Of a DNA stretch of 64,000 bases, positions 7,759 to 35,657 are shown one piece after another. Location: contig CM063283.1 of the NCBI GenBank assembly GCA_032173965.1, positions 115,123,187-115,187,186 on the forward strand. The letters are read 5' to 3'. A program made the position numbers and the translations under genes. The notes under the pieces are model-generated. The model was not told the DNA's origin and made no database searches. It worked only from the letters and a program-made list of their open reading frames with translations. Every line of letters begins with the position of its first letter. Positions within the stretch are counted from its first letter, which is position 1. Origin of the DNA: Sitta carolinensis (taxonomy: Eukaryota; Chordata; Aves; Passeriformes; Sittidae).

Positions 7759-8154
7759 TCACACATCCCTGAGGACGGAGCTCGCGCTCAGCCCCTCGGT
7801 GCCGGGGTGGGTTTTGCTCTCCAGCTCCAGGAAGGCAGAGCTGTTGATGATCACAAAGGTGTCCTTGCTCTGCACGGGCAGCTCCACCCGGGGCGGGCTC
7901 AGCTTCCCCGAGTACAGGTAGTCCATGTAGTTCTCGGGCTTGCTGGACACGATGTTGCTGAGCATCATGACAAAGAGGAGGAAGCCGAAGAAGCCGACGA
8001 TGATGAGGATGTAAAAGGAGGCCATGATCTCCTCCTGCAGCTCCAGGGCGGGGTTGCTGTAGTTGTTGAACCGAAGAGCCTTCTTTTGTTCCACGAACAT
8101 GTGGAGCAAATTGGGCAGCGCCGAGCTGCTGTTGGTGTGGTTGCTCAAAGCCAT
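7759..8154 (-). CDS. KCNE1-like single-pass potassium channel beta subunit (divergent KCNE paralog)
   Basis: Encodes 131 residues with no intron. An extracellular N-terminus carries sequons at N5, N8 and N31, then comes one membrane span at about residues 44-66 with the core GFFGF (54-58), then a cytosolic tail. The N-terminus (MALSNHT), the GFFGF core and the tail (FVII, then a glutamate-rich end) align best with KCNE1, and it lies in the same orientation as KCNE1 27 kb away, so a tandem KCNE1-type duplicate is inferred. KCNE family proteins sit beside the KCNQ1 or other Kv pores and set gating. Oddities: the KCNE1 activation triplet FTL is LLF here, the basic run after the membrane is reduced to K72, and DPF is missing. 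The start at M36 of the longer frame is chosen because a 3' splice site lies 26 nt upstream. A very diverged KCNE2 is the main alternative, but KCNE2 is normally highly conserved and lacks GFFGF. Confidence 0.85.
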   Translation of the reverse strand: MALSNHTNSSSALPNLLHMFVEQKKALRFNNYSNPALELQEEIMASFYILIIVGFFGFLLFVMMLSNIVSSKPENYMDYLYSGKLSPPRVELPVQSKDTFVIINSSAFLELESKTHPGTEGLSASSVLRDV

Positions 8155-8182
8155 CGAGGCTTCCACTCCAGAGGCTAAATCT
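8155..8182 (-). other. 3' splice site and 5'UTR remnant of the KCNE1-like exon
   Basis: On the minus strand a T-rich tract ends in TTTTGTTCAG; the AG is at 8182-8181 and the exon begins at 8180. This leaves 26 nt of 5'UTR before the ATG at 8154. The same arrangement, a short UTR remnant joined to an intronless coding region, is seen at KCNE1 in this window and is typical of the family. It implies at least one non-coding upstream exon at higher coordinates. Confidence 0.65.
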
Positions 8183-8335
8183 GAACAAAACAGAGTGAAA
8201 AAGAACTGATCAGCTGAGGCCAGGGCTTTGACACCACTCCTGTCCTCTGCTCTGGGCATCCTGCACTTGGAATGTGCAGCTGGAGGAGGTCGGAGCTCAC
8301 AGTGATGCCTGGAGAGGCTGAGCTGGAGCAGAGGC

Positions 8336-10485: not shown

Positions 10486-11340
10486 CCATTTCCTCTGCTC
10501 CAGTCATTCCCTGGGAATGGCCGCGTTTATCCCGCCCCGCCTGGAATCTCCTAATCCCAAATCCCCTGTGGGATCCAGGAGTGGGGAGATTTACAGCTGG
10601 GGATGGTCCAGGGGAATCCAAGGAATTCCAGCAGCTCTGGGTGTGCGAGGTCACGAGGTGGAGCTTTGAGCTAAACGGGATTTTTTTTTTTTTTTTCCTC
10701 TCTGGAGGAAAACAAAAAGGTAAAATCCCTTCCAGATTCCAAGTCAAGTGCCCATGGATTATCAAACTCTGGAAACCAAGTTAGAACCCCTCTGATCTCT
10801 TCAGAGGGAGAAAGGAATGTGAGATTTGAGTTAAAACCTTCAGAAAAACCAACATATATTAAACCATAGTAAAATAAAAATAAATCCTTAGGCTTTCTAA
10901 GTGCTTTTAATAAGCTGCCGTAGAAGGTCAGGGTCTTAAAAATCCAGATAAAAGCTCAGTGTTTCATAGACATAATTAAAAACCTAGTACAAAAATAAAT
11001 ACAATTTTATTTCACATTTTTAGATAGAGTAGTCTACTAAAAACAGATGGCAGCAAGGTCGAAAAGCAAGCTAAAATATTCAAATACCAAAATCAAAACC
11101 ATGAGAAAAACAACTGATGTAAAACCACCTTGAAGTGTTTAACATTTCTCTGTAATTAATAATGTAATATTTATATACGTCTCGATAATAAATAATGTAA
11201 TAGCTGTAGAGAATTTGTTTTAGATTTGTGTATTTAGCTAATTGGTTTTATTTAGAGTTAAAAACTTGGCCGTAGAAGCCTGCAAAAAAAGCAGCAATCC
11301 TTATCTGGGTAGCTACTGTGCTGCTGCTTCACTTTGCCTG
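10486..11340. other. No gene seen; AT-rich
   Basis: AT-rich single-copy-looking sequence; no exon recognised. Confidence 0.45.
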
Positions 11341-11343
11341 CAC

Positions 11344-11818
11344 AAAAGGAAGGAAGAGGAAAAGAAGGAAAGAAGAAAGGAAAAAAAGAAGAAAGAAAGG
11401 AAGGAAAGAAAGGAAGGAAGGAAAGAAAGGAAGGAAGGAAAGGAAGGAAAGGAAGGAAGGAAAGGAAAGAAGGAAGGAAAGAAAGGAAGAAAGAAGAAGA
11501 AAGGAAGAAAAGAAAAAAAAAAGAAAAAGAAAAGGAAAGAAAAGAAAAGAAAGAAAAGAAAAGAAAAGAAAGAAAAGAAAAGAAAAGAAAAGAAAGAAAG
11601 AAAAGAAAAGAAAAGAAAAGAAAAGAAAAGAAAAGAAAAGAAAAGAAAAGAAAAGAAAAGAAAAGAAAAGAAAAGAAAAGAAAAGAAAAGAAAAGAAAAG
11701 AAAAGAAGAAGAAAAGAAAAGAAAAGAGAAGAAAGAGAAAAGAGAAGAAGAAAAGAAGAAAGAAAGAAAAAAGGAAGAAAGGAAGAAAAGAAGAAAGGAA
11801 GGAAGAAAAGAAGAAAGA
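11344..11818. repeat. 475-nt homopurine tract, GGAA and AAAAG repeats
   Basis: Every base on the plus strand is A or G. GGAA-type repeats come first, a perfect AAAAG pentamer run occupies about 11590-11705, then degenerate GAAG/GGAA follows. The lysine-rich open frames across it are artefacts. Confidence 0.98.
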
Positions 11819-11859
11819 TGGTCTCAAAACTCTTCCCTCTGCCCCAGCCCAATCTGACT

Positions 11860-12150
11860 TCTTAAAATTAAGGAATAATTTGAAAAGGACCTTAAAGATA
11901 ATTTTGTTTCACCCCTGCCCTGGCAGGGACCCCTCTCACTGCCCAGGCTGCTCCAGCCCCAGTGTCCAGCCTGGCCTGGGGCACTGCCAGGGATCCAGGG
12001 GCAGCCCCAGCTGCTCTGGCAATTCCAGCCCCTCCAGGCAACAATTCCTGCCCCAATCCCAGCCAATCCCACTCTGCAGCCATTCCCTGGTGCTGTGCCT
12101 GCAGCCCTTGGCAATTGTCTCTCTCCAGGTTCCTGCAGCTCTGCCCAGGA
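11860..12150 (-). mobile_element. CR1 LINE fragment
   Basis: Reverse CR1 with a degraded 3' end and the CCAGCCCCAGTGTCCAGCCT core, extending to CAATTGTCTCTCTCCAGG. Confidence 0.85.
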
Positions 12151-16900: not shown

Positions 16901-17215
16901 GTTTCAGGCTCTTCCCTGGCTTTGATGGCTCTTTTTCCTTGGGAACCAGTCCCAATGGAAATGCAGAAGGATAAACATGGATAACAATCCCTTGGGAGCA
17001 CTGGCCCCCCATCACCTGCACAATGTGGGGGGATGAGCGATTCTGGGGGGATTTGTTTCATTGCCATGGACTCTGTAGGAATTTTCCTGATTCTCTGGGA
17101 AAGACACAGAATCCATGAGTCCAGCCTGCCCTGGAGAGGAGCTTGATTGCTAATTAACAGCCATGATTAGTGACAGCCTCCAGCTGGTGACAGGAAAAGT
17201 GCAGGAGAACGGATG
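16901..17215. other. No gene seen
   Basis: Short single-copy-looking spacer between the CR1 and the GGAT array. Confidence 0.4.
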
Positions 17216-17780
17216 CATGGATGGATGGATGGATGGATGGATGGATGGATGGATGGATGGATGGATGGATGGATGGATGGATGGATGGATGGATGGATGG
17301 AAGGATGGATGGAAGGATGGATGGATGGATGGATGGATGATGGATGGATGGATGGATGGATGGATGGATGGATGGATGATGGATGGATGGATGGATGGAT
17401 GGATGGATGGATGGATGGATGGATGGATGGATGGATGGATGGATGGATGGATGGATGGATGGATGGAGGATGGAGGATGAGGATGGATGGAGGATGATGG
17501 AGAGGATGGATGGATGGATGGATGGATGGTGGATGGATGATGGATGGATGGATGGATGATGGATGGATGGATGGATGGATGGATGGATGGATGGATGGAT
17601 GGATGGATGGATGGATGGATGGATGGATGGATGGATGGATGGATGGATGGATGGATGGATGGATGGATGGATGGATGGATGGATGGATGGATGGATGGAT
17701 GGATGGATGGATGGATGGATGAGGATGGATGGATGATGGATGGATGGATGGATGGATGGATGGATGGATGGATGGATGGA
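17216..17780. repeat. (GGAT)n microsatellite, about 565 bp
   Basis: Nearly pure ATGG tetranucleotide with a few single-base losses and GAGGAT interruptions around 17465-17510. The SIHP and WMDG open frames are artefacts. Confidence 0.98.
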
Positions 17781-17844
17781 CTGACTGCCCAGGCATTCCC
17801 AGGAAAAAGGGGCAGGGTTCTCAGCAGGGCAGCACAGTGGGGAT

Positions 17845-18215
17845 CTCACATGCTTCAGAGGATCCCACATCCTCCAGGGGGATCCCACATGGTCCAGAGG
17901 GATCCCACATCCTCCAGGGGGATCCCACATCCTCCAGGACAAGGGATCCTGCATGCTTCCAAGGGATCCCACATCTTCCAGAGGGATCTCATATCTTCCT
18001 GAGGGATCCCACATTGTCCAGAGGGATCCCACATCCTCTGTAGGAATCCCACATCCTTCAGAGGGATCCGATGTCCTCCCAAATGATTCCACACTCTCCC
18101 GAGGGATCCCGCATGCTCCTGAGGGATCCCGCATGCTCCAGAGGGATCCCACATCCTCCATAGGAATCCCACATCTTCCTGAGGGATCCCACATCCTCCC
18201 GAGGCACATCCAGCA
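17845..18215. repeat. GAGGGATCCCACATCCTCC minisatellite, about 16 copies
   Basis: Units of 20-26 bp, most with a BamHI-type GGATCC. Confidence 0.9.
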
Positions 18216-35247: not shown

Positions 35248-35625
35248 CTAGGGCGATTTCTCCTCAGGAATCCTGGTGCCCGGCTGCTCCACGGCCAGCT
35301 GGTTCTCCAGGACGCAGCAGAGCTTGCAGCTCTCCATGAGCTTGGCCTGGAGGTGCTGCCTGTCCTGCAGGTGCCAGGCATCCGTGGCAATGTAGGTGTG
35401 GAAGGGGTCGCGGGGCCCCTCGAGGCGCCGCGCCCGCAGGTTGGTCACCATCACCCCCACGGTGAAGAACCCGAAGAGCCCCAGCATCAGCAGCACGTAG
35501 ATGATCTCCAGGCTGGGGCTGGAGCTCGTGGCCTGAGCAGGAGCTGAGCTGTTGGGCTGCTCCAGGCACTCCTGGAGCACTTTGGAGAGCAGCAGGTTCA
35601 GGGATGTGTTGTTCGGCAGCAGCAT
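35248..35625 (-). CDS. KCNE1: KCNE1 (minK), potassium voltage-gated channel subfamily E member 1
   Basis: Encodes 125 residues, close to the mammalian length of 129, with the coding region in one exon. KCNE1 is the beta subunit that converts KCNQ1 into the slow delayed rectifier (IKs) in heart and inner ear; it is a type I single-pass membrane protein. Visible here: sequons at N5, N6 and N25, a membrane span at about 41-63 with GLFGFF (49-54), the activation triplet FTV (54-56, FTL in mammals), a basic juxtamembrane stretch (R64, R66, R67), the conserved DPFxxYI motif (73-79), the DAW motif (82-84), and a tail [11 protein letters not shown] matching the mammalian ENHLAIEQPNT. The ATG is 30 nt inside a 3' splice site. 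The stop is TAG. The tail is cysteine-rich (C100, C103, C104). Identification is firm. Confidence 0.97.
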
Positions 35626-35657
35626 CGTGGGTTTCTGTCCTCAACGCTTCTCGGGCT
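35626..35657 (-). other. KCNE1: 3' splice site and 5'UTR remnant of the KCNE1 coding exon
   Basis: The minus strand reads CCTTTTCTAG before the exon, with AG at 35657-35656 and 30 nt of 5'UTR ahead of the ATG. It requires an upstream non-coding exon at higher coordinates; a candidate donor lies at 38090. Confidence 0.65.

Follow-up and report, generated by a model that had tools for sequence, protein, structure and literature searches.

SMIM34, encoded next to KCNE1 in birds: a probable and so far overlooked relative of the KCNE proteins, small modulators of potassium channels, as judged from its sequence, locus and structure

In heart and epithelia, it is the KCNE subunits that determine how potassium channels gate; variants of KCNE1 and KCNE2 are linked to arrhythmia. 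As reported in PMC7584456, slow activation of KCNQ1 requires the F57-T58-L59 triplet of KCNE1, in which a hydroxylated middle residue matters and the substitution F57L makes the kinetics faster; the middle residue is I64 in KCNE2, and KCNE3, which carries TVG at the position of the triplet, has a common binding mode with KCNE1. On human chromosome 21, the order listed is KCNE2, SMIM11A, FAM243A, SMIM34A, KCNE1 and RCAN1 (PMC12652779), with gene starts at 34418715 for SMIM34A and 34446688 for KCNE1, i.e. 28.0 kb apart (PMC7358007). In the literature searched, outside of which most subscription papers lie, SMIM34 occurs in gene lists (PMC12652779, PMC7358007), and no paper describing a kinship between SMIM34 and the KCNE proteins was found among those listed; Pfam's automatic label on SMIM34 proteins does show this kinship.

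The stretch of DNA analysed (the window, 64,000 nucleotides) corresponds to positions 115123187-115187186 of contig C1 (CM063283.1) in the 1.03-Gb assembly of Sitta carolinensis; the flanks were included for gene order. A preliminary description of the window had pointed to an intronless, divergent KCNE1-type gene, which lies here with KCNE1 as follows:

7759..8154, minus strand: SMIM34 coding sequence, one exon, 131 amino acids plus the TGA stop (open reading frame, Pfam PF02060, 61 homologues)
8155..8180, minus strand: putative 5' untranslated start of the SMIM34 coding exon, 26 nt (splice acceptor context)
8181..8206, minus strand: 3' splice-like site of SMIM34, pyrimidine tract and AG (AG at 8182-8181)
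35248..35625, minus strand: KCNE1 coding sequence, 125 amino acids (Pfam PF02060, 141.2 bits)
35626..35655, minus strand: putative 5' untranslated start of the KCNE1 coding exon, 30 nt, with a splice-like AG immediately upstream (acceptor context)

The open frame, which reads from the ATG at 8154 to the TGA at 7759, is a real gene. Its coding character is apparent from a GC3 of 0.90 versus 0.41 at codon positions 1 and 2, the GC3 of the window's KCNE1 being 0.91. The 27.1 kb between the SMIM34 and KCNE1 coding sequences, both on the minus strand, agree with the preliminary description, and so does the KCNE-style 3' splice site, which is splice-like by sequence: 17 of the 20 nucleotides upstream of the AG are pyrimidines, the predicted exon start is at 8180 and the ATG lies 26 nt further on. 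In one scan, the distance from the splice-like AG to the ATG was 26 nt for SMIM34, 30 nt for KCNE1 (17/20 pyrimidines as well), 17 nt for KCNE2 and 26 nt for KCNE4, so that four of the five genes scanned have, from the DNA sequence alone, their coding exon directly behind a 3' splice-like site; the same scan gave no such site for the fifth, a KCNE3-like gene. An Agelaius isoform of SMIM34 (MTHLASGVEA...) hinted at an upstream exon ending in ATGACNC, and the corresponding candidate, ATGACNCGTRAG, had 0 matches within the window, where exon 1 was not located. Note that the interval between SMIM34 and KCNE1 contains a long purine-rich run (about 11300-11860, lysine/glutamate frames) and that a long tandem array at about 17160-18000 reads (HPSI)n when translated from the minus strand and (DGWM)n from the plus strand.

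The protein displays the following elements:

7951..8025, minus strand: predicted transmembrane helix, residues 44-68, within model helix 35-70 (AlphaFold2)
7972..7995, minus strand: GFFGFLLF, residues 54-61, aligned with GFFGF and the activation triplet FTL of KCNE1
7903..7938, minus strand: juxtamembrane segment PENYMDYLYSGK, residues 73-84, specific to SMIM34, where KCNE1-3 carry DPxxxYI (alignments)

As first described, SMIM34 has one hydrophobic helix preceded by three sequons, N5 (NHT), N8 (NSS) and N31 (NYS); a fourth, N104, is found in the tail. The flanks of the helix carry a charge of -3 on the N side and -1 on the C side, and this difference, together with the sequons, favours an outside N-terminus, i.e. 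the single-pass, N-out arrangement of the KCNE proteins as judged by sequence. The AlphaFold2 model comprises helices 12-30, 35-70 and 76-82 and is confident in the membrane helix alone, with mean pLDDT values of 87, 96 and 85 for residues 41-50, 51-60 and 61-70; as a whole it is poor (mean pLDDT 60.7, mostly low outside the helix), and a PDB fold search with this model returned two matches (E 7.2 and 8.4) and no KCNE match. The GFFGF core noticed from the outset is present, GFFGFLLF being exact in 61 of 61 homologues (the lamprey protein discussed below apart). In the alignment, the activation triplet reads LLF; its middle residue is hydrophobic, like those of KCNE2 and KCNE3, where KCNE1 has T58. 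The basic juxtamembrane stretch and the DP(F/Y)xxYI motif of KCNE1-3 are absent, their place being taken, with a 4-column gap in the alignment, by PENYMDYLYSGK. DPxxxYI is likewise missing in KCNE4 and KCNE5 (human sequences, and bird KCNE4 from the genome) and thus is not universal in the KCNE family.

Protein comparisons, on which our argument for constraint is based, show strong conservation of the helix and the juxtamembrane segment across sauropsids. Over residues 35-84, the median identity with the window protein is 98.0% (44/45 bird or bird-like rows, the latter including unnamed sequences grouped by similarity), the lowest value, 62.5%, coming from an odd gene model, and it is 72.0% in the 16/16 other rows. 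The identity of the N-terminus is 85.3% (45/45 bird or bird-like rows) and 35.9% in the other rows, and that of the tail, the least conserved part, 59.6% (39/45) and 27.2%. The best-conserved parts are the helix and PENYxDYLYSGK right after it. Of the 61 homologues, 43 keep the C-terminal pattern that we searched for, and a similar ending is seen in a few of the remaining 18; the set contains some odd or truncated gene models (e.g. Coturnix, Junco, Gallus).

Homologues numbered 49 in the protein search, 61 in the alignment search and 62 in a wider search, the last including one lamprey protein. Those with an organism name, which many lack, come from birds, turtles, a crocodile, lizards and a snake. 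Their database names include 'small integral membrane protein 34' in Aphelocoma and Phalacrocorax and 'SM34B protein' in Ceyx, Neodrepanis and Dromaius; the Crocodylus copy is labelled KCNE1, and many others are 'uncharacterized' or 'hypothetical'. Apart from the lamprey match at E 1.4, no named mammal, amphibian or fish SMIM34 occurs among the 49, 61 and 62 matches, some of which are unnamed; the search requires shared 5-letter words, and absence from it is no evidence of loss. The lamprey protein (P0065, Lampetra fluviatilis, unnamed), a weak match, has the core YLLVLCGFFGFLLF with GFFGFLLF and scores 17.8 bits against PF02060, under the cut-off; it is possibly an early SMIM34/KCNE relative and, if the match is real, SMIM34 would be as old as vertebrates.

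The neighbourhood of the gene was delineated on contig C1:

115104051-115104425, plus strand: KCNE2 (flank sequence)
115115002-115115085, plus strand: SMIM11 exon (82% over 28 residues of human SMIM11)
115131340-115130948, minus strand: SMIM34
115158811, minus strand: KCNE1
115196420 down to 115188559, minus strand: RCAN1 exons (flank sequence)

The bird order is therefore KCNE2(+), SMIM11(+), SMIM34(-), KCNE1(-), RCAN1(-), the same as that of KCNE2, SMIM11, SMIM34, KCNE1 and RCAN1 on human chromosome 21, compared without strands since the human sources give none. With SMIM11 and RCAN1 flanking SMIM34/KCNE1 as in human, the synteny check suggested at the start speaks for conservation of the locus. 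By gene order and by its distance from KCNE1, the window gene is orthologous in position to human SMIM34. It represents an already catalogued gene in its bird form, rather than a new KCNE1 copy confined to birds. The orthology with the mammalian gene rests on position and on the database names of the bird homologues, the homologue searches that returned 49, 61 and 62 matches having retrieved no mammalian SMIM34 sequence. Hence, of the fates initially proposed, retention in birds or sauropsids holds in that the gene is present across sauropsids (61 homologues) but not as a sauropsid novelty, human SMIM34A being at the same place; loss in mammals is not supported, given this same gene, located between SMIM11 and KCNE1; and 'unrecognised in mammals' is partly right, the gene being catalogued under a placeholder name and its KCNE link not being found in the papers searched. 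Note that the last RCAN1 coding exon gave three matches, two of them partial, in about 660 bp (C1 about 115188559-115189217), which may reflect a local, partial duplication of this exon.

The kinship of SMIM34 with the KCNE family is well supported by Pfam, by profile scores compared with shuffles and by the layout of one coding exon behind a splice-like site. SMIM34 matches PF02060 (ISK_Channel) with 33.9 bits (E 2.9e-8), above the curated cut-off of 22.1 bits. The human proteins score 237.2 (KCNE1), 51.1 (KCNE2), 31.7 (KCNE3), 34.2 (KCNE4) and 22.8 bits (KCNE5), so that SMIM34 falls within the KCNE3-KCNE5 range, below KCNE2 and KCNE1. Against a KCNE1-5 profile built from the window's KCNE1 and human KCNE1-5, the window protein scores 28.4 bits and the best of 2000 shuffles, done within its three regions with composition kept, 14.9 bits; the similarity thus exceeds membrane-helix composition. 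Fifteen SMIM34 rows (14 of the 61 homologues and the window protein) score 25.0-36.4 bits. A PF02060 search of the whole genome yielded six places, which we name from their sequences KCNE1, KCNE2, KCNE4, a KCNE3-like gene, KCNE3 and SMIM34. None of the six is KCNE5-like; human KCNE5 scores just 22.8 bits, and sensitivity may fall short there.

The similarity covers only part of the protein. SMIM34 shares 28.8% identity with the window's KCNE1, confined to residues 1-78. Its local matches to KCNE1 or PF02060 end at residue 78, so the tail alignable to KCNE1 of the preliminary description is not supported for the window protein. Among four reptile homologues, three match PF02060 up to profile position 76 and one (P0055, crocodile) up to position 117; as far as these sequences go, the SMIM34 and KCNE1 tails could still be remotely related.

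The main tree (25 rows, 139 columns, unrooted) included bird and human KCNE1-4, the KCNE3-like gene, human KCNE5 and 15 SMIM34 rows. SMIM34 forms a clade of its own (98/97), outside the KCNE2 clade (99/97). SMIM34, KCNE1 and KCNE2 stand together apart from the other KCNE rows (97/94), a grouping that drops to 81/75 when fewer rows are used. In the best tree, KCNE2 is the sister of SMIM34 (86/81). The topology test does not reject a KCNE1 sister (p-AU 0.35), or a join with KCNE3 (0.065), KCNE4 (0.22), the KCNE3-like gene (0.12) or KCNE5 (0.15); every join tested in the main and fewer-row trees has a p-AU of at least 0.05. The trees have few rows and long branches, and in the main tree the bird KCNE1 row does not group with the human one (36% of bootstrap trees unite them), which calls for caution about its resolution. 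When the lamprey is included, it attaches to SMIM34 (93/89) by a long branch, SMIM34 alone being at 89/90; with the lamprey held out of the group, the joins with KCNE4, KCNE3 and KCNE1 have p-AU values of 0.027 (rejected), 0.056 and 0.068, respectively. Since the lamprey sequence was found through the same core words and has a long branch, its affinity is a lead only. Altogether, a sister relation with KCNE1 is not established. The tandem KCNE1 duplicate originally proposed thus survives as a KCNE-type paralogue near KCNE1, without a simple KCNE1 sister relation, and the locus is best read, from the sequence comparisons, as a putative three-gene KCNE2/SMIM34/KCNE1 cluster.

We consider it rather probable that the window gene represents SMIM34 in birds, that SMIM34 arose long ago as a paralogue within the KCNE family and clusters with KCNE2 and KCNE1, and that its product docks on a KCNQ1-type channel. 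SMIM34 would be a glycosylated single-pass membrane protein with its N-terminus outside, its helix would dock in the cleft between the voltage sensor and the pore of a KCNQ1-type Kv channel, as do KCNE1 and KCNE3, and it would alter gating or trafficking. Given the LLF triplet and the absence of DPxxxYI, slow activation of the IKs type is not expected; we infer that SMIM34 may dock like other KCNE proteins and lack IKs-type slowing. A bolder version, plausible but short of probable, is that SMIM34 functions in amniotes, including humans, as a KCNE subunit that has escaped recognition, that the KCNE genes of the chromosome 21 cluster are KCNE2, SMIM34 and KCNE1, and that SMIM34 confers on a Kv channel, KCNQ1 or other, a gating behaviour so far attributed to no subunit.

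The alternative that survives best, which we find unlikely without dismissing it, is that SMIM34 is derived from the KCNE family but has left channel regulation, ENYxDYLYSGK serving another membrane partner or trafficking. The replacement of DPxxxYI and the basic cluster by a different, strongly conserved segment would fit such a shift, as would the fact that no functional paper on SMIM34 was found in the literature searched; however, the helix with the channel-facing KCNE core lies in the most conserved part, GFFGFLLF being kept in 61/61 homologues, and KCNE4 and KCNE5 also do without DPxxxYI and are still KCNE members. That the gene is a tandem copy of KCNE1 restricted to sauropsids and missing from mammals is improbable: all 61 homologues are birds or reptiles where named, and human KCNE1, in a tblastn search against the window, aligns to SMIM34 from residue 1 (E 4.7e-6), but human SMIM34A has the same place and spacing, bird copies are named SMIM34 or SM34B, and KCNE1 is no better a sister than KCNE2. 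It is more improbable still that SMIM34 is KCNE6, a sixth family member reported from zebrafish by Kasuya et al. 2024, as cited in the reviews PMC13054283 and PMC13031570, which attribute it to zebrafish and 'lower vertebrates'. The first of these reviews characterises KCNE6 as KCNE3-like (PMC13054283), whereas SMIM34 goes with KCNE1/2 and phmmer, at E up to 1, matched it to KCNE1 and KCNE2 chains but to no KCNE3 chain. SMIM34 being not KCNE3-like in sequence, the KCNE3-like gene of contig C15 fits better, and a join of SMIM34 with that gene is less likely (p-AU 0.12, not rejected). The latter (L004:1501-1827, PF02060 match at 17644192) is a separate intact frame of 108 amino acids with a DPYQEFI motif, shares its contig with KCNE4 at a distance of about 307 kb and groups with KCNE3/KCNE5 (98/95); judging from its sequence and from KCNE6 as described, it is probably bird KCNE6. 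Finally, SMIM34 is not KCNE1P, the zebra finch KCNE1 fragment reported as 97.2% similar to KCNE1 and about 1 kb from it (PMC3711925), and tblastn with human KCNE1 found one strong KCNE1 place in the window besides SMIM34 and no second KCNE1 copy.

If SMIM34 is the third KCNE gene of the cluster, an orphan gene of human 21q gains a testable function, and studies in which the KCNE genes of the region are limited to KCNE1 and KCNE2 miss one. Even without channel activity, SMIM34 would be a KCNE protein under strong constraint after loss of the juxtamembrane motif of KCNE1-3.

In conclusion, SMIM34 compares as follows with the systems already described. It shares with human SMIM34A (SMIM34A/SM34B) the name given to bird homologues, the place between SMIM11 and KCNE1 and a similar distance to KCNE1 (28.0 kb from gene start to gene start in human, 27.1 kb from one coding sequence to the other in the window), but in human FAM243A lies between SMIM11 and SMIM34, the bird order covering KCNE2, SMIM11, SMIM34, KCNE1 and RCAN1. 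Like KCNE6, it would be a KCNE member beyond the classical five; unlike SMIM34, KCNE6 is KCNE3-like by description, with a probable bird counterpart on another contig (C15). KCNE2 (MiRP1) is in the same cluster, is the tree partner of SMIM34 (86/81) and also has a hydrophobic triplet, but lies on the opposite strand, forms a separate clade and carries a DPYHQYI motif, which SMIM34 lacks. KCNE1 (minK, the IKs subunit) resembles SMIM34 in its single pass, its N5 sequon, its one coding exon behind a splice-like site, its strand and cluster and, in human, its GFFGF core (GLFGF in the window's KCNE1), whereas SMIM34 differs from it by the triplet LLF instead of FTL, by the absence of the DPFxxYI motif and by another tail.
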